A DNA stretch of 29,871 nucleotides from a virus, in IMG/VR virus record IMGVR_UViG_3300046777_002241, positions 1 to 29,871 of that record. One strand, 5' to 3'. This document shows positions 13,220-29,871 of this stretch, in pieces. A model generated the notes under the pieces. That model was not told where the DNA came from, ran no database searches, and was given only the letters and a program-made list of their open reading frames with translations. Position numbers and translations under genes: made by a program. Numbering within the stretch: the stretch's first letter is position 1; each line of letters opens with the position of its first letter.

Positions 13220-13229
13220 AGGTTAATAA

Positions 13230-16200
13230 ATGGCAATAACTACAAATTTAAATGTTGATCCGTACTACGACGATTTTAATGAAGATAAGAATTTCTATCG
13301 TATTTTGTATAAGCCTGGCTTTGCGGTTCAAGCACGTGAATTAACTCAGTCTCAGTCTATTCTTCAGGATCAAATTAAGAAGTTTGGTGACCATGTATTT
13401 AAAACTGGTTCTATCGTTTCTGGTGGACAAATCTTTGTTCAGAATACCACATATATTAACGTAGCTACAGCATATGGCACATCGGATGTCGATTATAGTG
13501 TTTTTAATAATGAGTATATTACGAATACAACTGGCACCAAAAAAGCTTACGTATTAAGATCATACGCAGCAGATTCTACTGCTGGTCAACCAATTACGTT
13601 TATTGTAAATCAGTTATATGGTTCAGATTTTGATGTCAACGAAACTATTGTTACTGCAAATACGCAAACTGGAGCAATAAATTACTTTGCTAATGTTGCA
13701 GCATCTAATCCTACTGGTAACTCAAAGACATTCTCTATTAATAATGGTGTGTTTTACTATGAAGGTTTCTTTGTTCGTAATGATGCTCAATCAATTGCAC
13801 TGTCAAAATATGATCGCAACGCAAATGCAATTGTTGGATTTCAAGTAACAGAAGAAATTATTGATTATACAGAAGATACGTCATTACTTGATCCGGCACA
13901 AGACGCTTCAAACTTCCAAGCACCTGGTGCAGATCGATTCAAGATTTCATTAACCCTAACAACTCGTCCATTAAACAGCACGGATCTTTCGCAGTTTATT
14001 GAGTTAAGTCAGTTTGAAGGTGGCATTCAACAGAAAGTAATTCAGACACCAATCTATTCTACACTTGGTGATGAACTTGCTCGTCGCACTTATGATGAAT
14101 CTGGTGATTATCTTGTACGTCCATTTGATATTGCAGTTACAGATGCTGCAAATACTGCACGTGCAAACGTCACATTAGGTGCTGGTAAAGCATACGTTCG
14201 TGGTTATGAATTCCAAACAATTGCACCTACTGTTATTTCTTTAGATAAACCAAGAACTACAGACAATGTAAACAATCGTCGTGTAACTGCCGATTTGGGT
14301 TACTATGTTTATGCTAATACTATCTACGGTACATTCCCAACAAATCAAATTGCCAACGTTGAACTTTATGCAGTTGACGCTGGTTCATTGATAAGTATTC
14401 AAGCAAACACAGCAAACTTAACTAACGTAAGAGTTGGCTCCGCTAAAATTAAGATGATCTCTTTTGATTCATCTTCAAATACACAAGATTCAAACACTTA
14501 CATTTACAAAGCATATCTCACAGATATTAATGTAGCTACATTATATAATACTGCAACTGGTAATGGTTATAACGCTGTAGCTGGTAACACAACATCTATA
14601 ACATTACCATCAGGTTTTTCTGCAAATAATAACACTTATGTTGGTGCAAAGATTAGAATTGTTGCTGGTCCAGGTGCGGTAGATGGTTCAAGAACAATTA
14701 AATATTATCAGGGTGGAGATGCAGGTAGAATAGTTACTGTTGATATACCATTTTCAACACCAATTACGACAGCATCACAGTTTATGATAGACTTTGATTT
14801 TGGTGAAACAGATTCACTTGCTGTTATGACTGGCGCAGGAGCAACACGTTCAGTATCAGCAAATATTCATCCATATTCTAAGAAAGTAATTTATGCACCA
14901 GTTGAACATGAAGTATCATATGTATCTGATGTTGGCAATGAACCTCTTCTAATTAAAATTGGTCAAGATAATGTAGCAGATAATACAATATCAGATTTTA
15001 GTTATTCATATCGACGTTTGTATCCAAGCGTTGGATTTAATTCGGGTGTTTCATCACCATTATCTTTGGGTACAGGTGAAACTTTACTCTCTGCATCTTC
15101 TACTGCAACAAAACAACAATATTATACAATAGTTGTAACAACAAAGGGAACAGGTATCTATGATGTAGGCACTATTGTTCCAGCTCATGTAATTTCTGTT
15201 GATACGTCAGCACGTACAATTTCGGTAACAGATGGTGGCTCAATGTCGGCAAACATCTATGCTGGTATTAGTGTATCAAATCCCACTTCCAAAACAAAAA
15301 CGTTTGTTCGTGCGAATACTAGACTTGCAGCAAATGGTACAGGTGTAACAACATCTAACAACGTATTTGGTAACGGTGCAATTTTTGTTTCATCACCAGA
15401 TGGTCAAACAATTATCAATGCAAATACAATTCTGGTAAGAACACCTGGTGTCGATCAATCGTTGTTCGTATCCGATGTTCATTCTATCAATGCTATTTTT
15501 GACTTTAATGGCACACCAATTACAACAACAAATTATAACGCTGGATCATATTCAAATGTAACATCTTACTATACATTAGTAAACGGTCAGAAAGACTCTT
15601 ACTATGATTGGGGTGCAATTCGCTTGAAACCTGGTTATCCAGCACCAAAAGGTCCTTTGCTTGTTCGTTATAACAGATTTATTTCATCGGGCACTGGTTA
15701 CTTTGATGTTGACTCATACACTCGTTTGGGACCCGGTAATCTTGACTATGCTGAGATTCCTAGTTTTGTAACACAAGATGGTTCAGCAGCACCATTAAGT
15801 GATTATTTGGATTTCCGTCCAGTTCGTTTAGATGCTACAAATACAGTTACAGCAAACAATTATGTGTTTGATGTTGAACCATTGGGTGCTGGTCCAAAAA
15901 TTGTTGAAACTGGCACTGATTTAATTCTTGATTACAGCTACTATCTACCACGTATTGATCGTGTTGTTTTAAACAAAAATGGATCGTTTGAGGTTATTGA
16001 AGGTATTCCATCACTGTCTCCTACTGAACCAGCAGAACCAGCAGATGCGATGACCTTGTATGTTTTATCATATCCAGCGTATCTTGGTTTTGCATCTGAA
16101 ACAAACATCAAAACGTTTAAAAACAAACGTTACACAATGAAAGATATTGGTGCATTAGAGAAACGTATTCAAAATCTAGAATACTACACATCTCTATCAC

Positions 16201-19200
16201 TAATGGAACAAGCAACAATCAATAAACAAGACTTGTCTATTCTTGATACTACAGGATTGCCAAGATTTAAGAATGGTATTATGGTTGATCCATTTACCGA
16301 TAAAACCGTAGCAAACTTTAATGCATCAGATTTCGCTGCGGCAATTGATATCGTTGGTAATCTTGCTCGTAATAGTTACAATCTGGCATCTGTGAGAATC
16401 TTTTCAAATAATGCAACATCAGATTCTGGCGTTGACTTTAATGGTCCATTGCTAACACTGACTGGTACAGATGAGAACTTCTTAACACAAAACCTTGCTT
16501 CTAAATCTGTAAATATTAATCCATTTAATATTGTAAATTATGTTGGGTCAGTTAAACTCGATCCAACATCGGATGTATGGACATCTGATACTCGTGTAGA
16601 AGCACAAAATATTGACTTGACAGGTGGAGAAGCCGCACGTGATGCATGGTCATCAATTCAAAGTACATCGTGGGGTTCATGGCAAACAACATGGACTGGC
16701 GTCGAACAAAGTCCTATTGGTGGTCTAAAAACAACAGATACAAAAAGAACTGAAACTACTACAAATTCTAAAGGACAAACAAAAACAAAAACAGGAACTT
16801 GGCGCACAGTTACACAAGATGTTTTAGAAGTACGAACAACACAAGAAACTCGTACTGGCATTCTTTCGCAAATTGTACCACAACAATTAACACGCTCGTT
16901 AGGAGATCGTTTAATTGATGTTACTGTTGTTCAATTTATGAGAGAAACAAATATTCTTGCAATTGGTACAAATTTCAAACCTTCAACAACGTTATACACA
17001 TACTTTGATAATCAAAGAGTTGATAATTACGTTTATCGTGCGAATCTATTAAAATTTGTAGGTAACGATCTTCAATATCAAACTACTATTGGTGATCCTG
17101 AATTTGTTGAATTCTACGATAACTCAAATGGTCAATTGATGGGTGAAGGTGTTGTTGTTCTCACTGCAAATAATCATGCGTTTATTACTAATATTGTTCC
17201 GAATTCTGATTATGGATCGTGGGCAAATGCGACAATTGGTATTCGTGTAATTGGTGTTGCAACTGAAGCAAACAATACGACTAATAACTGGCAACACTAT
17301 TCCGGTAGTATTCGTGCTGCAACTGTGTCAACAGTTCAATTGGATTATCATGCAGGTGGCGCGGCAAACACTTCAGATTATGTTGGACAAACGATTCGTA
17401 TCATTGATGGTTTAGGAAAAGGTCAAACAGCAACAATTAATGCTTATAACACAAGCACACGTACTGCCAATATTTCTACAAACTGGACAACAACTCCAGA
17501 TACAACATCATCATACTCAATTGGTACATTAACAACAACGATTGAGGGAGCAACTGCTGGTATTTTTGCGGCACCAACTGACACATTCCGTGTTGGTGAA
17601 AAACTGTTCCGTCTGATTGATGATCCTAATGGTTCATTGGAAAGTTCGACAACTAATGGTGAGACATCATTCTTCTCACAAGGTTTGATTCAAACTAAAC
17701 AAGAAACTACAATTTCTGTATTTGTTCCAACTGTAACACGTTCGACTGTAACGGAGAGTCGTGTAAATCAAACTTCTTCTGTTCGTTCAGCGGTTGTTCG
17801 TCAGGGTTGGAAAGATCCACTTGCACAAACATTCCTTGTAAATGCTGACCAGTATCCGCAGGGTATTATGTTGTCGAGTGTTCGTGTTTGCTTTAGAACA
17901 AAAGACTCACAAGCACCTGTAACATTACAGATTCGTACTGTAGTGAATGGATATCCTTCAACAGTAGTTTATCCATATGCAGATGTTTCATTAACACCAG
18001 ATAAGGTTAAGACAAGCGTATTACCAAGTCTAACAGATTCTAATAAGTATACAGAATTTACATTTGATGTACCAATTTATTTGTTACCTGGTGAACACTC
18101 AATCGTTCTACTTTCCAACTCTGTTGGTTACGAAGCATATGTTGGTGAAATTGGTCAAGTTAATCTTGCAAACTCAGTTAAGATTTCCGAGCAGCCATAC
18201 ACTGGTGCATTGTTCTTATCACAGAACGGTTCAACATGGACTGCTGACCAAACTTCTGATCTGATGTTTAGTCTGTATAAGAAAGCATACTCAACAACAA
18301 CTCCCGGTTATGCATACTTTGAAGTTGATATGTCACAAAGAACTGCTAATGCATTGTTTGATGTTATGCAAGTTATGTCTACGGATGTTGTTCTTGCAAA
18401 CACTTCATTAGATTATCAGTTTATTTCTGAAAATACTACAGGAACAACTCATCCATATATTTCATTTACGCCAAATTTTGATTATAAGATGGTAGATGGA
18501 TATGGTCGCCGTTCATTGAACACTGCTACAGGCAATACAACATTCTCACTACGTACAGTTCTATCTACAACAAATCGTGATATTACTCCGATGCTTGATA
18601 AGACAAGATTGAATTTGCTTGCTATCGAGAATCGTATTAACAATCTGCAACTGAAGAATACTGGTTTTGTAATTACTGCACCTGGTTCTGGTTACACTTC
18701 CGCATCAGTTTCAATTACTGGTGGTGGTGGAAGTGGTGCAACTGCTACTGCTACCGTTTCTGGAGGTCAAGTAACAGGGATCACATTAACAAGTGCTGGT
18801 TCTGGTTACACATCTTCACCGACAGTTGCAATTACTGGTGATGGTTCTGGTGCAACTGTAACATATAACGGTGAAGATAAGAAGTCTGGTGGTAATGCAG
18901 ATGTTCGTTACATCACACGTAAAGTGCAACTTGCATCTGGTTTCGATTCTGGCGATCTTCGTGTTTATCTGCTAGGTTACAAGCCACCACAAGGTAACAT
19001 TTATGTGTACGCCAAGTATCTTGCAGCGGGTGATCCTCAGAAGTTTGAAGATAAGAACTGGTCATTGTTGACACAAATTGGTGGTGGTAATTTTGTGTCT
19101 GCTGATGAAACAGATTATCGTGAAATGACTTTTGCTCCTGGTGCAAACGGAGTTGAAACTAATAATATTAGTTACACATCTGGTGCAGTGACATATACAA

Positions 19201-19526: not shown

Positions 19527-20021
19527 ATGGCAATAGATCAAATTTCAACAGCCAATACGTTTGAAGAGTGGTTAACTACCACATCAACATTAGTTGCGGT
19601 AGCAAATAATTTAACAGACAATACCGGTGGTGGTTTTGTTATGAACTCTTCAATCTTTATTGAAGGTTCTGCTGCATCTTTGAATGTTCGCACACTTGCT
19701 AATATTAATGAATTAACAGTAAATACGATTAGTATTCTTGGTGGTTCTGTTACAGGTAATCTAGAAACTGTTAATGTTACAAGTAACTTATATGTTGGTA
19801 AAGATGCTTTTATTCATGGTAATCTTACGATTTCTGGTAACGTAACACTCGATTCTTTAGGCTTTGATGATTTATCTGTTGCTGGTTCTGTAAACTCTAC
19901 AAACTTAAATACAAGCACAGCTAATATCACTTTACTTACTGGTACATCAAACACAGCAATTTATAACACTATCACTGCGGCGATTGACTCATCGATTGCA
20001 TTTGCGATTGCTTTAGGTTAA
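19527..20021 (+). CDS. Short tail-fibre-like protein (fibre base with shaft repeats)
   Basis: A 164-residue protein. The N-terminus (IDQISTANTFEEWLTTTSTL) resembles the baseplate-attachment end of fibre proteins in marine T4-like phages. The rest consists of short hydrophobic strands separated by Asn/Gly/Thr turns (LNVRTLANINELTVNTISIL, NLYVGKDAFIHGNLTISGNV), typical of a trimeric beta-shaft. It stops after about 130 shaft residues with no head domain. It may be a truncated fibre base whose distal part is supplied by the following genes, or a small fibre in its own right. It lies one base downstream of the coiled-coil gene. Confidence 0.65.
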   Translation: MAIDQISTANTFEEWLTTTSTLVAVANNLTDNTGGGFVMNSSIFIEGSAASLNVRTLANINELTVNTISILGGSVTGNLETVNVTSNLYVGKDAFIHGNLTISGNVTLDSLGFDDLSVAGSVNSTNLNTSTANITLLTGTSNTAIYNTITAAIDSSIAFAIALG

Positions 20022-20050: not shown

Positions 20051-20386
20051 ATGGCTAATAATTTTAGAAACTACACTCTTAAAGCTGCTGGAACTACAGC
20101 ACAAAATGTATATGCTGCTGGTGCTGGTGTACAAGCAACTGTGATTGGTATGACAATCGCTAACATTACAGCGTCACCAATTTCAGCAAACGTTATTCTT
20201 AAAACATCAGGTGCATCACCACCCGATGTATATGTGATTAAAGATGCTACGATTGCTCCTGGTGGTGCACTGGTACCAGTTGGTGGTGACCAAAAACTTG
20301 TATTGGAAGCTGGTGATTATTTACAAGTAAATACTTCGGTTGCATCATCTGCTGATGTTATTACTTCTGTTCTGGAGATTACCTAA
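20051..20386 (+). CDS. Small beta-rich virion-associated protein 1
   Basis: A 111-residue protein predicted to be all-beta: YTLKAAGTTAQNVYAAGAGV, then IGMTIANIT, ISANVILKT, then KLVLEAGDYLQVNT and VITSVLEIT. The layout (Thr/Val-rich strand pairs, central TIANIT, late LEAGDYLQV, ending VLEIT) is shared with two other small proteins in the window, at 22302 and 27648. No signal peptide or catalytic motif is seen. The stop overlaps the next fibre gene by one base (TAATG), so it is probably made together with that fibre and may be a capping or decorating subunit. Function is unknown. Confidence 0.7.
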   Translation: MANNFRNYTLKAAGTTAQNVYAAGAGVQATVIGMTIANITASPISANVILKTSGASPPDVYVIKDATIAPGGALVPVGGDQKLVLEAGDYLQVNTSVASSADVITSVLEIT

Positions 20387-21360
20387 TGGCATATATTGGT
20401 AACAATCCTGATGTAAATGCGTTTACTGTAGGAGTTGAAAGATTCAATGGAACTGGTGCTTGCACACAGTTTACTCTAACTCGTTCAATTTCTGACGCAA
20501 AAGCGATTGAAATTGTTGTAAATGGTGTTCAACAAGATCCAGATAATTCTTATACTGTAGCAAGTGGTTTAATTACATTTGATGAAGCACCATCTTTGGG
20601 TGCAAATAATATCATCGTAACATATCGTGCGCCTGTTGTTGTTACTTTTAATCAAGTCACATCTTCACAGTTACAACCAAATTCTGTAACTTCAACTGCG
20701 CTTAGTTCCGATTCGGTTATTAATAATAAAATTTCCAATGGTGCAATTACTGGAAATAAAATTGCTGAAAATCAGATTACTGGAAACTTAATTGCTGTTG
20801 CAGCAATTTCAGGTAATCAAATTGGTACTGGCGCTATTAGTGCAAATAACTTTGCTGGTGGTGGTATTACATCGAACGTTCTTGCATCCAATTTAACAAT
20901 TTCTGTTGCACGTGTATCCGAAGCAATAAACATAAATGCAACTGTTGTAGGTTCTAACAGTGCGTCTGGCACAAATGTAAATATCGATGTTTTAAACACA
21001 ACGGTTTATTACTTCAGTTCAAACACCACAGGTAATGTTACATTCAATCTTCGTGGTAATAACACAACTCGTTTTGATGATGCAGTTCAAGTTGGTAACA
21101 CTGTCTCTGTTGTTGTTACTTTACGACACAATACAGCGGCATTCCGTTCTGGTGCAAACGTTATGATTGATGGGGGATTAATTAGAACAACACTTGCTAA
21201 TCCAGATTCTGGTAATATAATGGTATATTCTGGAAATACTTTACCGTCACATTCGGTAATTAATGCATTAGAATTTAATATTATTGGATTTAATATTATC
21301 AAAAAAGCAGCAAATTCATATATTGTTTGTATGTCTAACACACTATTTGGATTGACATAA
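20386..21360 (+). CDS. Tail fibre protein 1 (full-length form)
   Basis: A 324-residue fibre-like protein in three parts. Residues 1-85 form a beta domain (MAYIGNNPDVNAF ... FNGTGACTQFTLTRS ... VVNGVQQDPDNSYTV ... ITFDEAP) common in phage fibre and baseplate proteins. Residues about 90-145 are a stalk of short repeats (ISNGAITGNKIAENQITGNL), as in trimeric beta-helices. Residues about 146-324 form a C-terminal beta domain starting IGTGAISANNFAGGGITSNV, also present in the genes at 24068 and 26081. The stop overlaps the start of a glycine-rich gene (TAATG). It is likely a fibre stalk presenting or partnering the glycine-rich protein; this pairing is inferred from repeated gene order. Confidence 0.75.
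   Translation: MAYIGNNPDVNAFTVGVERFNGTGACTQFTLTRSISDAKAIEIVVNGVQQDPDNSYTVASGLITFDEAPSLGANNIIVTYRAPVVVTFNQVTSSQLQPNSVTSTALSSDSVINNKISNGAITGNKIAENQITGNLIAVAAISGNQIGTGAISANNFAGGGITSNVLASNLTISVARVSEAININATVVGSNSASGTNVNIDVLNTTVYYFSSNTTGNVTFNLRGNNTTRFDDAVQVGNTVSVVVTLRHNTAAFRSGANVMIDGGLIRTTLANPDSGNIMVYSGNTLPSHSVINALEFNIIGFNIIKKAANSYIVCMSNTLFGLT
20821..21357 (+). repeat. Shared fibre C-terminal block, copy 1
   Basis: Codes for the block starting IGTGAISANNFAGGGITSNV and running to the stop. It includes YYFSSNTTGNVTFNLRGNN and FNIIKKAANSYIV. Related to 24545-25093 and 26201-26737. The protein is well conserved while the DNA differs at many third positions. Confidence 0.85.
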
Positions 21361-22286
21361 TGCCTTTTCAAGCTACATTCGGTAATGGTTCTTTTAGAAC
21401 TTATGGTTTAGGTGCAACAAAAAGAAGATTCGGTGCAAACGTAGCTATTCAATATCTTGTTATTGCTGGTGGTGGAGGTTCTTACACAGCACCATATACC
21501 TCTACAGGTAGAACGGGTGGTGGAGGTGCTGGCGGTTTTAGAACAGGAACTTTAAATGCGTTTGGTGGTGAAAGATTAGTCATCGCAGTTGGTGCTGGTG
21601 GTTCTGGATGTACACCCGGTACAAATTCATCTATTCTAAGAAGTGATGGTGCTCAAGGAATTTGGAGTAATGTTGTAAGTGATGGTGGCGGTAATGGTCT
21701 TATGTTTGGCAATCCTGGTGGAGGTGGTCCGGCATTTCCAGCATTTGATGGTAATTCGGGCGGTTCTGGTGGAGGTTATGCTGCTACTCCACAATGGAAT
21801 GGAGTGATTGGAACTAACACATATAAGGGATATGCTCCTCAAGGATTTGGTGGTGGTGGCGGTTCTGCTGCTTCAGCTGGTGATAATGCTGGTGCTGGAG
21901 GTGGTGGAGGTGCAGGCGGTCAAGGTGGAGATGGTGGATATCCAAGTTTTCGTGGTGGTGCTGGTGGTGCAGCACTTGCATCTTCAATTACAGGCACACC
22001 AATAAATTTTTCTGGTGGGGGAGCTGCTGCTGGTAGTGGAGGAAGTGGTGCAACTTCTTCTCCTGGTGGTGCTGCGAATTCTCCAGCGGCAGCAAATCGT
22101 GGTGGTGGTGCTGGGGGTTCACCTGGTCAAGGACCATCAAATTTAAATGGTGGAAGTGGATTTGTTGTTGTTCGTAGCGTCACACGTGCATCAAACACTG
22201 TAGGTAATCCTACTGAAACTCAAGTTAGTGGTGAATGGGTTTATCAATTCACTGGTGCAGGTGAAATTGTTATAGGAACACCATAA
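21360..22286 (+). CDS. Glycine-rich adhesin-like protein 1 (strand at the C-terminus)
   Basis: A 308-residue protein with a very high glycine content. It opens MPFQATFGNGSFRTYGLGAT, then has IQYLVIAGGGGS and GGGGAGGFRTGTL, followed by many polyglycine runs. It ends GFVVVRSVTRASN ... VYQFTGAGEIVIGTP. The core (YLVIAGGGG, GGGGAGG, final VVVR-type strand) is the phage glycine-rich domain pattern. Polyglycine-II sandwiches of this style are known in gp38-type receptor-binding adhesins of some T4-like phages; use of such a fold here is inference. The strand with F-T-G-x-G that precedes the core in other copies is found here at the end. It overlaps fibre 1 by one base. Likely a tail-tip or receptor-binding protein. 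Confidence 0.7.
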   Translation: MPFQATFGNGSFRTYGLGATKRRFGANVAIQYLVIAGGGGSYTAPYTSTGRTGGGGAGGFRTGTLNAFGGERLVIAVGAGGSGCTPGTNSSILRSDGAQGIWSNVVSDGGGNGLMFGNPGGGGPAFPAFDGNSGGSGGGYAATPQWNGVIGTNTYKGYAPQGFGGGGGSAASAGDNAGAGGGGGAGGQGGDGGYPSFRGGAGGAALASSITGTPINFSGGGAAAGSGGSGATSSPGGAANSPAAANRGGGAGGSPGQGPSNLNGGSGFVVVRSVTRASNTVGNPTETQVSGEWVYQFTGAGEIVIGTP

Positions 22287-22301
22287 GTTTAGGAAAATTA
22301 A

Positions 22302-22640
22302 ATGGCAAGAGCATATAAAATTTTAGGTCAAAAAAATCCATCAGCAAATGTATTGACTACATTGTATGAGGTTCCTGCTGGAAATTCTGCAATTATATCT
22401 TCAATTACGATTGCAAATCTTGATGAGAATGCTGCTAACGGTGCAGCATTTAGAATTGCTGCGAACAACTCAGGTGTTTCTGTTGCTAATGCCAATTATC
22501 TTTCTTATGGCGTAAATGTTCCAGGTCGTGATGCAATTACTCTTACTCTTGGCATTACATTAGCACCGGGTTCAATTGTATCTGTAAACGCAAACTCTGC
22601 TCTTGTAGCCTTTTCAGCATTTGGAACAGAAATTTATTAA
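22302..22640 (+). CDS. Small beta-rich virion-associated protein 2
   Basis: A 112-residue all-beta candidate: TLYEVPAGNSAIISSITIAN, then YGVNVPGRDAITLTLGITLA, and ending FSAFGTEIY. The arrangement (a VPAG turn, SSITIAN strand, xVPG-type hairpin, late SIVSVNANSALVAF strand) corresponds to the proteins at 20051 and 27648. A TTTAGGAAAATTAAATGG start context gives a good ribosome binding site. The next gene, a glycine-rich protein, starts 11 bases later, as for the 27648/28031 pair. Function is unknown. A role in capping or mounting the glycine-rich protein is a guess from repeated pairing. Confidence 0.7.
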   Translation: MARAYKILGQKNPSANVLTTLYEVPAGNSAIISSITIANLDENAANGAAFRIAANNSGVSVANANYLSYGVNVPGRDAITLTLGITLAPGSIVSVNANSALVAFSAFGTEIY

Positions 22641-22650
22641 TGAGCTTTGA

Positions 22651-23595
22651 ATGAGCCTTCGTAGATTAAATGTAAATCGTTTAGTAACTAAGAAAGCTGG
22701 TAAATCAATTAAACAATTGGTTTCAAGAAAACGAATTTCTGTTCCACCAGCACTTCCTGGAAATGTAGTAGTAATATTTGTGGGAACAGGTACATTTACC
22801 ATTCCTGCAGGTATCACTTCTATAAGTTATCTTGTCATTGCAGGCGGTGGCGGTGGTGGTGGAGCTAGAGATGGTAACCACAATGCTGCTGGTGGTGGTG
22901 CTGGTGGTTATCTTTTTTCACCCGCAATTTCAGTTACACCAGGTGCAACGTATAGTGTTAGTATAGGTGGTGGTGGTCTTGGTGCTCAAATAGGTACTGG
23001 TTCTATTGGTGGTCAAGGTAGTTCAAGTTCAATTTCTGGACCCGCACCATTTCCAACAGTAACAGCAGTGGGTGGCGGTGGTGGTGGATGTCAGTGTCCA
23101 TTTCCATCATCACCATTTGGACAATCAACAGCCGGTGGTTCTGGTGGCTCTGGTGGTGGTAGTGGCGCAGGACCACCACCAAGTTCGGGTAGTTTCGGAG
23201 TTGGTGCTGGAACACCCGGACAAGGAAATAATGGCGGTGATAGAATTTCTCAAGCACCCGCTGCACCCACAAGTTATGCTACTGGTGGTGGAGGCGGTGC
23301 TGGTGGTGCTGGTAATTTTCCAGCAGGAGGAACAATTGTTCCCGCAGTTGGTGCTGGCGGCATAGGACTTTATAATAGTATTAGTGGTTCTAATGTTGGC
23401 TACGCTGGTGGTGGTGGTGCAACAGGTCAATCTGGTGCGATTCTTTATGGTGGAGCAAATGGTGCTGGACCTTTAGTGGCAGGTTCGGGTGCAAATACTA
23501 CTGGTGGTGGCGGCGGCGCCGGAGCGGCAAGTCCGAATCCTGCAATAATAATCGGCGGCAATGGCGGATCTGGAATAGTTATTATCAAATGGTGA
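22651..23595 (+). CDS. Glycine-rich adhesin-like protein 2
   Basis: A 314-residue protein. The N-terminus is basic (MSLRRLNVNRLVTKKAGKSI), then comes the edge strand VVIFVGTGTFTIPAGITSIS leading into YLVIAGGGGGGG. Polyglycine runs fill about residues 68-300. It ends directly after the strand GSGIVIIKW. A Cys-x-Cys pair (GGCQCPFPSS) sits near residue 148. This is the ordinary arrangement, with the F-x-G-x-G-x-F strand first, unlike the genes at 21360 and 25096. The start at 22651 is preferred because an ATG at 22640 runs into a stop after four codons. Likely a receptor-binding or tail-tip component. Confidence 0.7.
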   Translation: MSLRRLNVNRLVTKKAGKSIKQLVSRKRISVPPALPGNVVVIFVGTGTFTIPAGITSISYLVIAGGGGGGGARDGNHNAAGGGAGGYLFSPAISVTPGATYSVSIGGGGLGAQIGTGSIGGQGSSSSISGPAPFPTVTAVGGGGGGCQCPFPSSPFGQSTAGGSGGSGGGSGAGPPPSSGSFGVGAGTPGQGNNGGDRISQAPAAPTSYATGGGGGAGGAGNFPAGGTIVPAVGAGGIGLYNSISGSNVGYAGGGGATGQSGAILYGGANGAGPLVAGSGANTTGGGGGAGAASPNPAIIIGGNGGSGIVIIKW

Positions 23596-23597
23596 CG

Positions 23598-23605
23598 CAT
23601 AAATA
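23598..23605 (+). promoter_or_regulatory. Late promoter box CATAAATA before the 139-residue gene
   Basis: CATAAATA matches the late consensus. The ATG at 23637 lies 31 bases after the box, with a strong AGGAG site at 23625-23629. This is one of the largest gaps in the window (41 bases), and it starts a new transcription unit inside the adhesin array. Confidence 0.65.
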
Positions 23606-23636
23606 TTATAGATTCTTTTTTATTAGGAGTGATTGA

Positions 23637-24056
23637 ATGAACAACAAAGATATTGAATATGCACAATATTTAATTGGCAACAACAACAAATTAGTTTGTG
23701 GTATTGATACTGCGATCAAAACATTAAGACCAACAGCACGTTATGATATGTCTGCATCCGGCGGACACTTTGAATTTACACGTTGGGAAGATGAAGCAGG
23801 AACTAAGCCACCAACTAAAGAAGAGATTTTCAAAGAACTAGAATATCAAAATCAGTTTATTGCATATTGGCAGCATTTTGTTGATCGTGCAGCGAACTAT
23901 CCTGATATTGTAGTTATTATTAATAGTTTATGGGAAGCTATTGATTCTGGTGATATTCCAGGTAAAGGAACAAAATTCTATGAATCTATCAAAAAGATTA
24001 ATGATCAATTTCCTAAACCTGATGGTGAACCACCAGTAAGACCAACATACGAATAA
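23637..24056 (+). CDS. Conserved small phage protein of unknown function (fibre-region type, possible chaperone)
   Basis: A 139-residue acidic, mostly helical protein, unlike its glycine-rich neighbours in composition. The first half holds a short beta segment (IKTLRPTARYDMSASGGHFE, then FTRWEDE) followed by PPTKEEIFKELEYQ. The second half carries a pattern I recognise from many small proteins encoded beside tail fibres: RAANYPDIVVIINSLWEAID, then SGDIPGKG, FYESIKKINDQFPKP. The family's role is not established to my knowledge; a fibre assembly chaperone is plausible from position. It has its own late-type promoter and a strong ribosome binding site. It separates the two halves of the adhesin array. 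Confidence 0.65.
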   Translation: MNNKDIEYAQYLIGNNNKLVCGIDTAIKTLRPTARYDMSASGGHFEFTRWEDEAGTKPPTKEEIFKELEYQNQFIAYWQHFVDRAANYPDIVVIINSLWEAIDSGDIPGKGTKFYESIKKINDQFPKPDGEPPVRPTYE

Positions 24057-24067
24057 TAGGAAATTAA

Positions 24068-25096
24068 ATGTCATATATTGGCAATCAAGTTACATCAGTA
24101 CCACACACTGTAGATGTATTTACGGGTAATAGTGTTACTACAACATTTGGTCCGCTAACAAGAGCGCCTGCTGGTACTGCTGCAATCGCAGTTTTTGTTG
24201 GTGGTTTTTATCAAACACCAGGTATTGATTATACTTTAAATGGTGATGTCATTATTTTTAATGTTGCTCCACTTACTGGAACAAATAATATTGTTATTCA
24301 TCATTTGGGTAATGGCACAACAACTCAAGTGCCATCAGATGGTTCTGTAACAGGCACAAAACTTACTTCAAACTCTGTTCGTAGTAATAATATTGTTGCT
24401 GGACAAATTACAGGTAATTTAATTGCTGATACGTCGATCACATCTAATCAAATTGTTGTAGGAGCAATTACTGGTAATTTGATTGCTACAAATTCAATAA
24501 ACGCAAGTAACATCATCAATCAACTTTCAATTACAGGTAACTTAATTGGTACTGGTGCGATCAGTGCGAACAACTTTGCTGGTGGTGGTATCACATCAAA
24601 TGTGTTGGCATCCAATTTAAGCATCTCTGTAGCACGTATATCAGAAACATTAGGAATTAATGCTTCTGTTATTGGTTCAAACAGTTCAGTTGGTGCAAAT
24701 GTTACACTTAATATTTTAGATGGAACAGTTTATTACTTTAATGCAAATACATCTGGAAATGTGACATTTAATCTTCGTGGTAACAACTCAACTCTTTTTG
24801 ATCAAGCAGTGCAAGTTGGTAATACTATTTCTGTTGTTGTTTCTTTAAGACATAATACAGCAGCACATCGTTCTGGAGTAAATGTTGCGATTGATGGTGG
24901 TTATATAAACACAACAAGAGCGAATCCAGATATAGCCACAGGTAATATAATTTTTTACGCTGCTAATACTACAGCAAATCACTCTGCAATTTCTGCAATG
25001 GAATCTAACATGATTGGATTATCTATTTTTAAGAAAGCATCCAATTCTTATATTGTTTATCTATCACAAACAATTTATGGATTAGGGTATAATTAA
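24068..25096 (+). CDS. Tail fibre protein 2 (full-length form)
   Basis: A 342-residue paralogue of fibre 1. It keeps the N-terminal beta domain (MSYIGNQVTSVPHTVDVFTG ... FVGGFYQTPGIDYTLNG ... APLTGTNN) and a stalk (about 95-158) made of short repeats such as SITSNQIVVGAITGNLIATN. It has the shared C-terminal block from residue 160 (IGTGAISANNFAGGGITSNV ... YYFNANTSGNVTFNLRGNN). The stalk is a few repeats longer than in fibre 1. A TAGGAAATTAAATG start context provides the ribosome binding site. The stop overlaps the next glycine-rich gene by one base, exactly as for fibre 1 and the gene at 21360. Confidence 0.75.
   Translation: MSYIGNQVTSVPHTVDVFTGNSVTTTFGPLTRAPAGTAAIAVFVGGFYQTPGIDYTLNGDVIIFNVAPLTGTNNIVIHHLGNGTTTQVPSDGSVTGTKLTSNSVRSNNIVAGQITGNLIADTSITSNQIVVGAITGNLIATNSINASNIINQLSITGNLIGTGAISANNFAGGGITSNVLASNLSISVARISETLGINASVIGSNSSVGANVTLNILDGTVYYFNANTSGNVTFNLRGNNSTLFDQAVQVGNTISVVVSLRHNTAAHRSGVNVAIDGGYINTTRANPDIATGNIIFYAANTTANHSAISAMESNMIGLSIFKKASNSYIVYLSQTIYGLGYN
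24545..25093 (+). repeat. Shared fibre C-terminal block, copy 2
   Basis: Second copy of the fibre C-terminal block, closest to copy 1 at 20821-21357. The opening 20 residues are identical to copy 1, while the DNA differs mostly at third positions. Confidence 0.85.
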
Positions 25097-26061
25097 TGCC
25101 TATTCAAGCAGCATTTGGAAATGGTTCTCTTAAAAGTTTTGGATTAACTGGCACTCAGTTAGAATCCAGAAGATATAACCTAGTATTAGATTATCTTGTT
25201 GTAGGTGGCGGCGGTGGCGGTGGACGCAATCGAGCTGGTGGAGGTGGTGCTGGTGGTTTTTTAACAGGTAGTAATATACCATTTCAATTTGGTGGAAGAA
25301 TATATTCGGTAGGTGTTGGCGGTGGTGGTGCTGGTTTTACCACACCTAATGCACAGGGTGCAGGTGGTGATGGGACAAATTCAAGTATCACATCAACATA
25401 CGGAATTAATGTTACGTCAATAGGTGGTGGCGGTGGTGGTGGTGCTGGTGCACCTATTAATTCAGGTCGCTCGGGCGGTTCTGGTGGCGGCGGTGGACCC
25501 AGTGGTAGTGGTGGATCGGGAACACCAGGACAAGGTTTTGTTGGAGGAAATGCTACAACTTTCCCTGGTGGAGCTACTGCCGGTGGCGGTGGTGGTGGTG
25601 CAGGTGGAACAGCGACTTTTAATACTTCTCCTCCTTACTACGGAGCATGTTGTCCTGTTCAATGGATTGGTGGAGTGGGTTTAACTTCATCACTCTCAGG
25701 AGCTTCGGTTGGTTATGCTGGTGGTGGCGGCGGTGGTGGGAATTCAAATACGGGTGTTGGTGGTCCTGGGGGTGCTGGTGCTGGTGCTGGTGGTTCACCA
25801 ACTGCTGGTCCACCATATAACGCTATTCCAGGAACAGCTAATCTTGGTGGCGGTGGCGGTGGCGGTGGTGATACTGAGACTGGTGGTGGAAACACAAACG
25901 GTGGAGCTGGTGGTGATGGGGGTAGTGGTATAGTAATTGTTCGTCATTCAAGCACGATACCAACTGCACAAACAACCGGTTCACCAACATTTACTGATAA
26001 TGGAACATATAAAATATATAAATTCACCGGTTCCGGTTCATTTTTTTGGAACATTTTATAA
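25096..26061 (+). CDS. Glycine-rich adhesin-like protein 3 (strand at the C-terminus)
   Basis: A 321-residue paralogue of the gene at 21360. It has the same opening (MPIQAAFGNGSLKSFGLTGT), then LDYLVVGGGGGGG and GGGGAGGFLTGSN. Long polyglycine runs follow, then SGIVIVRHSS and a C-terminal tail ending TYKIYKFTGSGSFFWNIL. Two Cys lie together in YGACCPVQW (near residue 180). As in glycine-rich protein 1, the F-T-G-S-G strand is at the C-terminus. It is translationally coupled to fibre 2. The pair 24068-26061 mirrors the pair 20386-22286 and is best read as an old duplication. Likely receptor-binding or tail-tip protein. Confidence 0.7.
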   Translation: MPIQAAFGNGSLKSFGLTGTQLESRRYNLVLDYLVVGGGGGGGRNRAGGGGAGGFLTGSNIPFQFGGRIYSVGVGGGGAGFTTPNAQGAGGDGTNSSITSTYGINVTSIGGGGGGGAGAPINSGRSGGSGGGGGPSGSGGSGTPGQGFVGGNATTFPGGATAGGGGGGAGGTATFNTSPPYYGACCPVQWIGGVGLTSSLSGASVGYAGGGGGGGNSNTGVGGPGGAGAGAGGSPTAGPPYNAIPGTANLGGGGGGGGDTETGGGNTNGGAGGDGGSGIVIVRHSSTIPTAQTTGSPTFTDNGTYKIYKFTGSGSFFWNIL

Positions 26062-26080
26062 AACAATTTAAGAGAAAAAA

Positions 26081-26740
26081 ATGCCTTTAATTAGAATAAC
26101 GTCAGATAGTATCGCATCAAATGCAATTACAAATGTTGGAATTGCAAATGGTACTATCGTGTCAGTAGATTTGGCAGATGGTTCTGTTACTGGACCAAAA
26201 ATTGGACCAGGTGCTATTAGTGCAAATAATTATGCTGGTGGTGGTGTTACAACAGATGTTCTTGCACCAAATTTATCAATATCATTAATAAGAACAAATG
26301 AAACAACTAATTTATTTTCTACAGCACCGTCAGGAAATTTAAATATAGATGTTGCAAATACTACTCTTTATTATTTTACATCAAATACAACAGCAAATGT
26401 AACATTTAATCTTCGTGCAAACAATACTAATACGTTTGATTCGATTGTTAGAGTTGGTGAAACTGTTACTGTAACTATTATGTTGCGTCACTCAACAACT
26501 TCTGGTGGTCGTCATGCAGCAAACATTTATATTGATGGTGGTTTAATTACGACAAATAGAACAACCCCAGATCAAGCTGGCGCAAATAATATCTTCTATG
26601 TTGGTAATTTAGTGCCTTTATATGCTGCAACAATTCCAGGAACTGGCGTTGAAATGAATATGTTTAATATTAGTGTGTTCAAACGAGCAGCGAATACATA
26701 TACAGTTTTCACATCAAACGCTACTGCACAAATAGGCTAA
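26081..26740 (+). CDS. Tail fibre protein 3 (short form lacking the N-terminal beta domain)
   Basis: A 219-residue paralogue of fibres 1 and 2. It starts MPLIRITSDSIASNAITNVG, goes at once into a short stalk (about 6-40), then the shared C-terminal block from residue 41 (IGPGAISANNYAGGGVTTDV ... YYFTSNTTANVTFNLRANN ... FNISVFKRAANTYTVF). The 85-residue beta domain at the front of the other two is absent. I see no sign of a broken reading frame upstream: the 19-base gap (ending AAGAGAAAAAAATG) only serves as a leader. The next glycine-rich gene begins one base after its stop. Confidence 0.75.
   Translation: MPLIRITSDSIASNAITNVGIANGTIVSVDLADGSVTGPKIGPGAISANNYAGGGVTTDVLAPNLSISLIRTNETTNLFSTAPSGNLNIDVANTTLYYFTSNTTANVTFNLRANNTNTFDSIVRVGETVTVTIMLRHSTTSGGRHAANIYIDGGLITTNRTTPDQAGANNIFYVGNLVPLYAATIPGTGVEMNMFNISVFKRAANTYTVFTSNATAQIG
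26201..26737 (+). repeat. Shared fibre C-terminal block, copy 3
   Basis: Third and most diverged copy of the fibre C-terminal block (IGPGAISANNYAGGGVTTDV to the stop). Compare 20821-21357 and 24545-25093. Confidence 0.8.
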
Positions 26741-26741
26741 T

Positions 26742-27626
26742 ATGTCTAGACTGGCTTCATTATTAACATTATCAACTGCGGCATTGAGAAATAAAAGGGT
26801 TGCTGTTGGACAAATATTTACTAGTAGTGGTACTTTAACCATACCGCCAGCCGTTACTGGTGTTGATGCTTTAATTATTGCTGGTGGTGGTGGTGCTTCA
26901 AGTTCTAGTCCATGTGGTGGTGGTGGTGCTGGTGGTGTGAGAATACTTAGCGGTATTGCAGTAAACAGAGGTGATGTTTTAAATATTCAAATAGGTGGTG
27001 GTGGATCGGGTGGTGGATCAGTAGGTTCAAATTCTGGAATTTGGGCAGCATCACCTTTTCCCGCTTTATGGTCTGCTGGTGGCGGTTATGGTGCAGGAGC
27101 TAATCCAAGTCCTGGAGCAGGTAATAATGGTGGTAATGGTGGCTCTGGTGGTGGTGCTGGAGGAGGTGGTAATGCTGGGGTATATAGTGGAGGTGTTCCA
27201 ACACCAAATCAAGGCTATGCTGGAGGTAATGCTGGATTTTTAGGTGCCGGTGGTGGTGGAGGTGCTGGTGGAATAGGACAAGATGGTCCATATCTTTATG
27301 GAGGCAACGGTGGCATAGGAATATTCTCCACAATTTCGGGATCAAATACAGCATATGCTGGTGGTGGTGGAGGTGGTGCACCGTCCCATCCAATTTATGG
27401 ACCAGGACATTTTGGAATTGGTGGCGGTGGAATATATCGTGGTTCGGGACAATATGGTTCTCCAAATTCCACAGTATCACCTTATGGCGCATTTTTCGGA
27501 ACACCTTTTGGTGGTGGTATGTCTGGAACTGGTGAAAGTGGTGTTACTAATACTGGTGCTGGTGGTGGTGGTAGTTCGGGGGGTGGTGGTAATGGTGGAT
27601 CAGGTATTGTTATTATCAGTTACTAA
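26742..27626 (+). CDS. Glycine-rich adhesin-like protein 4
   Basis: A 294-residue protein. A short N-terminus (MSRLASLLTLSTAALRNKRV) precedes the edge strand GQIFTSSGTLTIPPAVTGVD, then ALIIAGGGGAS and GGGGAGGVRIL. Polyglycine runs fill the centre, with aromatic loops between them (FPALWSAGGGY, GPYLYGG, PIYGPGHFGIGG). It ends immediately after GSGIVIISY. The strand order is the ordinary one, as in glycine-rich protein 2. It is paired with the short fibre 3. The aromatic-containing loops between glycine runs are where receptor contact would be expected if the fold is a polyglycine sandwich; this is inference. Confidence 0.7.
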   Translation: MSRLASLLTLSTAALRNKRVAVGQIFTSSGTLTIPPAVTGVDALIIAGGGGASSSSPCGGGGAGGVRILSGIAVNRGDVLNIQIGGGGSGGGSVGSNSGIWAASPFPALWSAGGGYGAGANPSPGAGNNGGNGGSGGGAGGGGNAGVYSGGVPTPNQGYAGGNAGFLGAGGGGGAGGIGQDGPYLYGGNGGIGIFSTISGSNTAYAGGGGGGAPSHPIYGPGHFGIGGGGIYRGSGQYGSPNSTVSPYGAFFGTPFGGGMSGTGESGVTNTGAGGGGSSGGGGNGGSGIVIISY

Positions 27627-27647
27627 TAAGAATTTAAGGAAAAATAA

Positions 27648-28031
27648 ATGGCAGCACCTAATATAGTAGCAGTCACAACTATCAGAGGCAAAAGTAATGT
27701 TGCCAATCTTACTACGACCTCATCTAGTGTTATAGTAAATCCTGTCAACTCAGGACAAGTATTTAAAATCAATACAATTATTATTTCAAATGTTGACGGC
27801 ACAAACTCGGGTAACGTAACAGTAGAGTTGTTTAAGTTTGGTGCACAAAATGTTGCGACTGGTACAGGTAACTCTGTATATTCATTAGCAAACGTTGTTA
27901 CCGTTCCAGCAAAATCATCTTTAGATGTGATGAGTAAATCATTATATTTGGAAGAAGGTGACCATCTCAAAGCAAAAGCAGATTCAAACAATCGTCTACA
28001 TTTAATTACATCGTTCGAAGAGATTAGCTAA
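27648..28031 (+). CDS. Small beta-rich virion-associated protein 3
   Basis: A 127-residue all-beta candidate: FKINTIIISNVDGTNSGNVT, then VELFKFG, NVVTVPAKSSLDVMSKSLYL, EEGDHLKAKAD and a final LITSFEEIS. This matches the plan of the proteins at 20051 and 22302, with the clearest EGDHL turn (compare AGDYL in copy 1). The start context AAGGAAAAATAAATGG contains a good ribosome binding site. The stop overlaps the following glycine-rich gene by one base (TAATG). Function is unknown, perhaps a mounting or capping subunit. Confidence 0.7.
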   Translation: MAAPNIVAVTTIRGKSNVANLTTTSSSVIVNPVNSGQVFKINTIIISNVDGTNSGNVTVELFKFGAQNVATGTGNSVYSLANVVTVPAKSSLDVMSKSLYLEEGDHLKAKADSNNRLHLITSFEEIS

Positions 28032-29871
28032 TGGGTGTTCGTTTCAACGGCGGTATTATTGGTTCACGAAATCTAACTACTGGTGGCGGCATCGGTCAGG
28101 GTACCGCTGTTGGTATTTGGTCAATGAATGAAGTATCAGTAGCAAAACTTGCTGGTATATGGCCACAAGAAATTGCTTCCGGTGTATTTCAAGGTGTTCA
28201 AATCTTCACAGAAAGTTCATCTTGGGTACCACCAACAGGTGTATCACAAATTGATTATCTTGTAGTTGCTGGAGGAGGCGGCGGTGGTGCTAGAGTTGGT
28301 GGTGGAGGTGGTGCTGGTGGACTTCTTACTGGTTCATCTTTTCCTGTAACATCAGGACAACGATATTCGGTTGTTGTCGGTGCAGGTGGAGCGGGTGGTT
28401 TAGTTCCGGGTATACAGTATGATGGTGCAAATGGTTCAAATGGTTCAAACTCTGGTATTTGGAGTGCTGCTCCGTTTCCTGCTATTTGGGGTATTGGTGG
28501 TGGCGGTGGTGCTGGTAGTGATAACAAGATAGCTTTTTCTGGTGGCTCTGGTGGTGGCGGTGGACTCAATTATTTCCCAACGAATCCCCAAGGTGCTGGT
28601 TACGTTGGTGGTTTAGGAACTCCAGGTCAAGGAAATAATGGTGGCGGAGGTGGTCAAGCATTCAATCCTTCACCTTTAGTTTTTGGTTCTGGTGGTGGTG
28701 GAGGTGGTGCAGGAGGCGCTGGTTATGGTGGATCAAACGCTACAGTTTCTCTAACAAATGCAAATGGTGGCATAGGAATATTCAGTAGCATTACAGGTTC
28801 AAATACTGGATATGCTGGCGGCGGTGGCGGTGCTTTGAACACAGCAACTCCATCGGGTTATTATGGTCATTTTATTTGTGGTGGAGCAAACGCAGCACCT
28901 TTTGGTACAGCTACTTCTGGAGCAAATGCAGCAGTTTATACTGGTGGTGGAGGTGGTGCTGGCGGAATTTCCAGTCCTGATCCGGGATATCCTGGAGGTT
29001 CGGGTGGTTCTGGTGTGGTGATTTTAAGATATTATCTTCAATCAACAAATGGACTTTTTGTTTTTGCTAACACAGGACAATTTATAGTGCCTGATGGTGT
29101 AACATCAATCGATTATCTTTTAGTTGCTGGTGGTGGAGGTGGTGGTGATGATGCAGGAGGCGGCGGTGGCGCTGGTGGCGTTTTAATCGGTACAGGATAT
29201 CCTGTAGGACCAAATCAACTATACACAATTCAAATTGGTGCTGGTGGTGCCAAACAAGCAAATGGTATTAATACTGTTTTTTTATCAGGTAATACTGCAA
29301 ATGCTATATTACTTAATGCTTTAGGTGGTGGTTATGGTGGTAGCGGTATAGCGTCACCTATTACGCAATATGGTGCTTCAGGTGGATCAGGTGGAGGCAG
29401 TTGTGGAGATAATCCTGTTATTTCTGCTGTCGGAGCTTCTGGTACACCAGGTCAAGGGTTCAGTGGCGGTGGTGGTTTTCATACACCAGGATTTAACACT
29501 GGTGGAGGCGGCGGCGGTGGTGCTGGTGGTGCTGGTGCAAATATGCAAAATTATCCTGGACCATCAAGCAATCCAGTAAATGCTGGTAATGGTGGTATAG
29601 GAATCTTCTCAACAATTACTGGTGCAAACGTAGCTTATGCTGGCGGCGGTGGCGGTGGAATTAATAATGATGGTTCTCCAGCAAATGGCGGTTCTGCGGG
29701 TAAAGGTGGTGGAGGTTATGCAGTATATTCTTCTGGTTCACCTTGGTTAGGTACACCATATGGTGGTGGTAATGGAAATAATAATGGTAATGGATTTGCT
29801 GCTAATAATAACACAGGTGGTGGCGGTGGTGGTGGTTCTAGAACTGCACCAGCATATTCTAATGTTGGTGC
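28031..29871 (+). CDS. Glycine-rich adhesin-like protein 5, double module (3' end beyond the window)
   Basis: An open frame of at least 613 codons with no stop before the window ends. It starts MGVRFNGGIIGSRNLTTGGG. After about 55 residues comes the first module: VQIFTESSSWVPPTGVSQID leading to YLVVAGGGGGG, polyglycine runs, and GSGVVILRYYLQ ending near base 29040. A second module begins at once: LFVFANTGQFIVPDGVTSID, then YLLVAGGGGGGDD and further glycine runs to the edge. It is therefore at least twice the length of the other glycine-rich genes. Aromatic loops (FPAIWGIGGGG, YYGHFICGG, FHTPGFNTGG) interrupt the runs. It is coupled to the small protein at 27648. Likely a large receptor-binding or tail-tip protein. 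Confidence 0.7.
   Translation, partial: MGVRFNGGIIGSRNLTTGGGIGQGTAVGIWSMNEVSVAKLAGIWPQEIASGVFQGVQIFTESSSWVPPTGVSQIDYLVVAGGGGGGARVGGGGGAGGLLTGSSFPVTSGQRYSVVVGAGGAGGLVPGIQYDGANGSNGSNSGIWSAAPFPAIWGIGGGGGAGSDNKIAFSGGSGGGGGLNYFPTNPQGAGYVGGLGTPGQGNNGGGGGQAFNPSPLVFGSGGGGGGAGGAGYGGSNATVSLTNANGGIGIFSSITGSNTGYAGGGGGALNTATPSGYYGHFICGGANAAPFGTATSGANAAVYTGGGGGAGGISSPDPGYPGGSGGSGVVILRYYLQSTNGLFVFANTGQFIVPDGVTSIDYLLVAGGGGGGDDAGGGGGAGGVLIGTGYPVGPNQLYTIQIGAGGAKQANGINTVFLSGNTANAILLNALGGGYGGSGIASPITQYGASGGSGGGSCGDNPVISAVGASGTPGQGFSGGGGFHTPGFNTGGGGGGGAGGAGANMQNYPGPSSNPVNAGNGGIGIFSTITGANVAYAGGGGGGINNDGSPANGGSAGKGGGGYAVYSSGSPWLGTPYGGGNGNNNGNGFAANNNTGGGGGGGSRTAPAYSNVG

Follow-up and report, generated by a model that had tools for sequence, protein, structure and literature searches.

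Modular receptor-binding proteins are known from several phages, and the way in which they are attached to the virion differs from one to the next. In cyanophage Pam3, host recognition falls to a single fibre protein, gp24 (PDB 7YPX/7YFW; PMC9608196), which combines a TNF-like and glycine-rich fold with its own helical baseplate-docking domain and is accompanied by a tail-fibre-assembly (TFA) chaperone. In Salmonella phage S16 and the T-even phages, a separate adhesin gene, gp38, lies directly 3' of the fibre gene (gp37 in S16), and its product bears a glycine-rich recognition domain. Several receptor-binding proteins with constant docking parts and exchanged recognition parts occur in the Ackermannviridae, exemplified by TSP1-4 of CBA120 (PMC11721090), and in Alcyoneusvirus RaK2 (PMC10253068), while marine host-recognition metaviromic islands are described (PMC3909814) as hypervariable clusters of fibre, lectin and C1q-like genes in aquatic phages. 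Here, we describe an array of small beta-rich (S), fibre (F) and glycine-rich (G) genes at positions 20,051 to 29,871 of IMG/VR virus record IMGVR_UViG_3300046777_002241. The window, that is, the whole stretch of DNA analysed, is this 29.9-kb fragment (29,871 nucleotides), which stands as a record of its own. It derives from a T4-like myovirus of aquatic bacteria, of which the array is probably the distal tail-fibre/adhesin region.

We present evidence that the locus is built from repeated post-plus-plug units with partner-specific anchors and exchangeable bodies, a reading to which we assign a probability of about 0.7. The post would be a small beta domain at the fibre end. It would either stand alone as an S protein or be joined to the shaft, as the C-terminal domain of F (FC) is in the window and S is in some relatives. 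Immediately behind the gene for the post, and in most cases translationally coupled to it, a second gene would encode an adhesin that is seated on the post, possibly as a trimer, and that comprises a short post-specific N-terminal anchor and an exchangeable receptor-binding body, with the Pam3-fibre glycine-rich fold in the window. Recombination would, in turn, swap bodies behind a constant anchor or shift whole FC-G cassettes between fibres at a conserved hinge in the shaft. Several different adhesins may be displayed on one virion, with a possible effect on host range. The array thus belongs to a known kind; what varies is the architecture, in which small beta domains would serve as posts for short cognate anchors, and of this we found no earlier description in the open-access literature. 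Unlike Pam3 gp24, the window G proteins have a short anchor in place of the docking helix and are reiterated behind separate F or S partners; unlike gp38, they occur in several copies on two kinds of post and have no gp38 Pfam match. The Ackermannviridae mount tailspikes through XD/gp10-like docking domains, none of which was found in Pfam or PHROGs scans of the array, whereas the window would use small beta domains and anchors of 20-50 residues. The metaviromic-island report, in the part considered, describes variability rather than partner-specific anchors, post-plus-adhesin pairing or a hinge. The features of the array are as follows.

20051-20386, + strand: S1, small beta protein of 111 residues (open reading frame; phrog_1276, E 5.7e-10)
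20386-21360, + strand: F1, fibre with N-terminal domain (FN), repeat shaft, hinge and C-terminal domain FC1 (phrog_18673 tail fibre, E 5.9e-11; phrog_5906)
20819-20903, + strand: hinge repeat copy 1, 85 bp, encoding GAISANNFAGGGITSNVLASNL (repeat search)
21360-22286, + strand: G1, glycine-rich adhesin with PF21722-like body (24.2 bits, cut-off 24.3; phrog_2295, E 3.4e-15)
21360-21440, + strand: G1 anchor, residues 1-27
22302-22640, + strand: S2, jelly-roll of 112 residues (AlphaFold2 predicted local distance difference test score (pLDDT) 87.8, predicted template modelling score (pTM) 0.77; fold matches)
22651-23595, + strand: G2, adhesin with glycine-rich-fold body (PF21722, E 3.8e-21; AlphaFold2 pLDDT 83.4, pTM 0.82)
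22651-22767, + strand: G2 anchor, residues 1-39
23637-24056, + strand: X, conserved 139-residue gene preceding the slot-2 F (95% identical to that of relative L115)
24068-25096, + strand: F2, fibre with FN, shaft, hinge and FC2 (against F1, FC 65% and FN 36% identical)
24543-24627, + strand: hinge repeat copy 2 (70/85 identical to copy 1)
24543-26198, + strand: FC2-G3(-F3 start) unit, 1656 bp, in frame (552 codons), absent from the closest relative L039/L115 (blastn against L039, join test)
25096-26061, + strand: G3, adhesin behind F2 (PF21722, E 1.7e-17)
25096-25179, + strand: G3 anchor, residues 1-28
26081-26740, + strand: F3, truncated fibre with short shaft, hinge and FC3, without FN (FC3 84% identical to FC of the L039 slot-2 F)
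26199-26283, + strand: hinge repeat copy 3 (70/85 identical to copy 1, 62/85 to copy 2)
26742-27626, + strand: G4, adhesin behind F3 (PF21722, E 1.3e-6; start aligns with the L039 slot-2 G at the DNA level)
26742-26813, + strand: G4 anchor, about residues 1-24
27648-28031, + strand: S3, small beta protein of 127 residues (phrog_1276)
28031-29871, + strand: G5, at least two G domains, running past the window end (PF21722, E 2.6e-32, two stretches)
28031-28195, + strand: G5 anchor, S3-type, residues 1-55

An initial annotation, made from the letters and open reading frames of the window, had proposed the order S-F-G, S-G, a 139-residue gene, F-G, F-G and S-G(double), with every G directly behind an F or an S. 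All of these genes are present as long open reading frames in that order, and each window G does directly follow an F or S gene. The junctions before G1, G3 and G5 are TAATG overlaps and that before G4 is 1 base, as had been noted; the spacing before G2 is 10 bases rather than 11. A TAATG overlap also joins S1 to F1. The doubling of G5 stands as a minimum: two or more G domains are encoded before the window end interrupts the gene. Three scans recovered 120 related loci, several of which are overlapping pieces of one contig, and among the distinct G genes of the window and these loci 89 of 120 directly trail an S or F gene, so that the arrangement is not attributable to chance; a further 28 follow another G. 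The upstream partner of the 89 is an S in 68 cases, an F with both FN and FC in 15, and FC only or FN only in 3 each. With S and F counted by domain-wise profiles, individual loci carry 0-7 G genes (0-11 G domains), 1-6 S and 1-3 F on a shared backbone of S1-F1 ... S2-adhesin-X-F2 ... S3-adhesin. The gain, loss and shuffling of cassettes that the initial annotation had anticipated are therefore strong among relatives, and the genes are not fixed as single copies. Phase variation by inversion was considered and rejected: inverted repeats in the array are only short and imperfect, and no recombinase match was found among its genes in Pfam or PHROGs. Sigma-70-type promoters within the array numbered 27, with 30.2 expected from shuffles.

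The adhesins carry an N-terminal anchor of 20-50 residues that identifies the upstream partner. Behind S2-type proteins the anchor reads M(S/A)L(N/R/K)R...SL(R/K)R(M/F), behind S3-type proteins GLNGGIIGxxN...GIWSLxE...LWP, and behind FC MPIxxxxGNGSxxxFG, of which proteins behind the FC3 subtype (window G4, L115, L007, L022) have a variant. In leave-one-out trials, anchor hidden Markov models trained only on proteins with glycine-rich bodies found the right partner for 84 of 84 of these proteins, a result that in part reflects orthology within slots. Applied to proteins with other bodies, the same models were correct for 10 of 10 behind S2, 2 of 3 behind S3 and 2 of 4 behind FC; a further FC-linked protein of this kind scored best only at 0.0 bits and was not counted. 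The replacement bodies behind conserved anchors include DUF7483, Laminin_G_3 (LamG), SPRY and an SBBP beta-propeller, and the nearest neighbours of the glycine-rich bodies agree with the partner in 42% of cases, compared with 21% by chance. Because bodies are replaced and the agreement of body with partner is low, the adhesins are best regarded as modular. The genes thus lend good support to the proposal of interchangeable, putatively receptor-binding complexes in one sense: a body or an FC-plus-G pair is exchanged. The parts are not freely interchangeable, the anchors being specific to the upstream partner. Swapping, duplicating or replacing a body behind a constant plug is a likely route to new host recognition, to judge from these sequences.

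The candidate posts are of two kinds. S1-S3 form one family (phrog_1276; alignment), yet S2 shares only 20% identity with S1 and 18% with S3. The S2 model is an eight-strand jelly-roll (pLDDT 88) whose strong fold matches are many uncharacterised phage proteins and parts of tail-fibre-like proteins of S-CAM1 and P-SSM2; in the PDB it is matched weakly by TNF-family proteins, a cement protein, a pentamer from a metagenomic phage and ExsF, a spore protein in complex with a fibre-anchor peptide. F proteins of relatives L032/L060/L085 and L068 carry a C-terminal S domain (E 2e-22 and 5e-23), and therefore S can take the position of FC at the fibre end; in L046 S is fused to a shaft-like protein. 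S-G and F-G thus appear to be variants of a single post-plus-adhesin arrangement. Profile comparison found no homology between S and F. S1 pairs with F1 and not with a G, and S1-type proteins directly precede F in relatives and isolates. The jelly-roll of S2 and its weak TNF-family matches would also suit S proteins that are themselves receptor-binding lectins with C1q/TNF-like heads, the downstream genes then encoding fibres or accessory proteins capped by S; S homologues in isolates bear annotations such as putative lectin and C1q globular head-like, and C1q-like genes are enriched in host-recognition metaviromic islands (PMC3909814). We regard this alternative as unlikely, since a receptor-binding head would be expected to vary, whereas S2 is among the more conserved array proteins (73-88% across relatives) while the bodies encoded downstream of it are replaced wholesale.

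In the post-plus-plug reading, the fused post is FC, and it is FC that predicts a following G. F1, F2 and F3 are clear paralogues (blastp 43-53%), and F proteins of relatives are either long (FN-shaft-FC) or short (FN-shaft), the short ones ending in DIFDDAFLFGGM or SGxVGSIIFGG-like peptides. A G directly follows 18 of 21 F genes with FC but only 3 of 83 without it (Fisher p 2e-14); with F clustered at 65% identity, the figures become 14 of 16 and 3 of 39 (p 2e-8). Among F genes lacking FC, 59 of 83 are followed by an S, and two of the three that precede a G end in sequence that, by eye and with no family search made, resembles the Peptidase_S74 chaperone. FN is 51-87% identical within slot 1, 54-96% within slot 2 and 29-45% between slots, while F1 of L040 and F2 of L101 share 81% identity in FC and 45% in FN; a further FC group comprises L041, L094 and both slots of L098. 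Furthermore, FC identity correlates in Mantel tests with the body of the G behind it (r 0.47, p 0.0002) and with the anchor of that G (r 0.32, p 0.003); FN shows almost no such correlation. These comparisons indicate that FC domains move between slots and genomes and that F N-termini do not.

A probable movement of this kind can be seen in the window. L039, 85% identical to it over 12 kb, aligns through X and F2 to the hinge and then picks up again in FC3 and G4; what the window has in addition is an FC2-G3 unit, in frame and delimited by two copies of the 85-bp hinge repeat. Joining the flanks at any offset in the repeat except the first base, which gives a stop, yields an open frame of 338 residues, and the protein so formed shares 78% identity over its length with a 336-residue L039 protein. 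Slot 2 of L039, L007 and L022 holds FC3-type domains, which favours gain in the window over loss, and the window phage probably acquired an additional FC-G cassette. Identity between the hinge copies is only 73-82%, and their uninterrupted matches span 13-20 bases; the recombination therefore need not be recent, and structural constraint may be what preserves the motif, with recombination making incidental use of it. Extra cassettes might instead serve mainly as a recombination reserve, with one or two G proteins assembled and the others rarely displayed, and the lack of an attaching N-terminal domain in F3 and the presence of one or no G gene at the locus in some relatives fit such an arrangement. 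All window copies are intact, none is decayed, their starts are coupled and the S and X partners are maintained, which makes a mere reserve improbable.

The G proteins of the window are all of the PF21722 type. All five G copies are related by profile (phrog_2295, E 3e-15 to 2e-72); G2, G3, G4 and G5 exceed the 24.3-bit gathering cut-off of PF21722 (Gly_rich_2), and G1 falls 0.1 bit below it. Built on 54 sequences, the AlphaFold2 model of G2 shows a folded body from about residue 40; residues 1-20 have pLDDT below 50, and residues 1-39 contain no helix, hence no N-terminal alpha-helical baseplate-docking domain like that of Pam3. Its best PDB fold match is the tail tip of mycobacteriophage Bxb1 (9D93 chain Qb, E 1.4e-5), a siphovirus unlike the window phage, followed by the Pam3 fibre (7ypx_A, E 3.3e-5, probability 1.00, template modelling (TM) scores 0.43/0.52) and, more weakly, the glycine-rich region of ALK. 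The G body is thus modelled as a glycine-rich fold of the phage fibre/tail-tip kind. Profiles of S, F, G and X found no usable match among PDB sequences; the G profile reached E 0.96 against Pam3, a likeness clear only by fold. An identity with the gp38 adhesin was dropped, as Pfam scans of the array match PF21722 and no gp38 family, and the 50 best PDB matches of the G2 model, listed to E 5.7, do not include the polyglycine-sandwich fold of S16 gp38 (6F45). By analogy the G proteins may work like S16 gp38, although their membership of that family is not established. A role for the glycine-rich proteins as structural decoration or as spacers in the fibre rather than as receptor binders, as the occurrence of structural glycine-rich repeats, the length of multi-domain G proteins and the weak cement-protein resemblance of S2 might suggest, is very improbable given their location after fibre tips, their Pam3/Bxb1-like fold and the lectin-like domains that can take the place of the G body on an unchanged anchor. 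Some relatives have additional PF21722 genes tens of kilobases away from the array, at 54301-55896 in G001 (the contig of L111), 54988-59625 in G008 (that of L008) and 10697-11377 in G005; in these relatives S genes were found only at the array.

The pairing extends beyond close relatives, to unrelated contigs as well as to isolated phages. The S3 family is very common, with at least 527 confirmed members in viral contigs, and occurs also in cyanophages, pelagiphages and other phages. Among isolates, an S3 gene is paired with an S3-type anchor on a glycine-rich body in DSL-LC04 and pelagiphage HTVC033P and on a LamG body in S-SKS1, which has a second anchor copy; in Bellamy, S3 is followed by a glycine-rich gene whose N-terminus is less similar. 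S1-type genes precede F-type genes in S-TIM5, CRP-9 and Ochrobactrum phage OC, and an S2-type gene precedes glycine-rich genes in ct2KA10. S-CBWM1 is a counter-example, with no adhesin gene after its S3-like gene. A wider proposal, which we put forward tentatively and at somewhat less than even odds, is that unrelated aquatic tailed phages share a general plug-and-socket system, in which the sockets S1, S2, S3 and FC accept short cognate anchors, any body with the right anchor can be mounted, and a virion can carry several different adhesins at once.

Several observations weigh against the post-plus-plug reading. The sampled genomes are related, so that counts are not independent, and the polarity of the FC2-G3 difference rests on few relatives. 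FC-linked anchors are loosely conserved, two of the four FC-linked proteins with other bodies are unconvincing, and one S3 case fails. The fold matches of G2 are moderate (TM 0.36-0.52), and the attachment point of F3-G4, where F3 is a C-terminal half without FN, is unexplained. At distant S3 loci the next gene exceeds 5 bits with the S3 anchor model in only 38 of 72 distinct cases; half of the followers are glycine-rich, and the others are FN3-like or LamG-like by eye. If the reading is correct, it supplies a readable rule for genes usually called hypothetical: the partner and the first 20-50 residues would indicate the post, and the remainder a possible recognition target. Anchors could then be used to pick host-recognition proteins out of metagenomic phages, and the mounting and exchange of several adhesins in aquatic phages would become directly testable.

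Upstream of the array lie T4-like baseplate genes for a tail-tube cap, gp53, a gp5-like hub, PAAR, gp25 and gp6, a 1359-residue baseplate wedge protein, gp8, a 2024-residue DUF4815/phrog_358 protein and a 73-residue phrog_473 protein. A short repeat module within the gene for the 2024-residue protein (18697-18845) is seemingly common to the gp6-like and 1359-residue baseplate proteins (phrog_701/phrog_460 matches). The close relatives of the array region are IMG/VR contigs; named phages match only distantly, almost none being close, and the comparison therefore draws on those contigs together with isolates that have S or distant baseplate genes in common with the window. No psbA-type gene was found in any of eight large relatives, whose records are possibly incomplete, and the relatives' sequences give no sign of cyanophage identity.

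Several minor features accompany the array. Upstream of S1 is an orphan gene, g12 (19527-20021), whose product of 164 residues ranges from about 71 to 364 residues across relatives and is perhaps a proximal shaft. The S1 of L087 (12667-12903) has only 78 residues and apparently lacks the middle part. Between S1 and F1, L049 carries a GIY-YIG homing endonuclease-like gene (12971-13621; PF01541, E 7e-10, with NUMOD3) and L083 another such gene (12793-13380) with only a sub-threshold SegE match; such insertions could help to mobilise the locus. Very large fibre genes (1756-1820 residues) with three FN-domain copies lie downstream of the array in L010, L012 and L018. Gene X is a possible, though unproven, assembly factor; it has no Pfam match, PHROGs matches of unknown function and no TFA match in PDB sequences. 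In L121 it occurs in two tandem copies (12919-13335 and 13368-13784).

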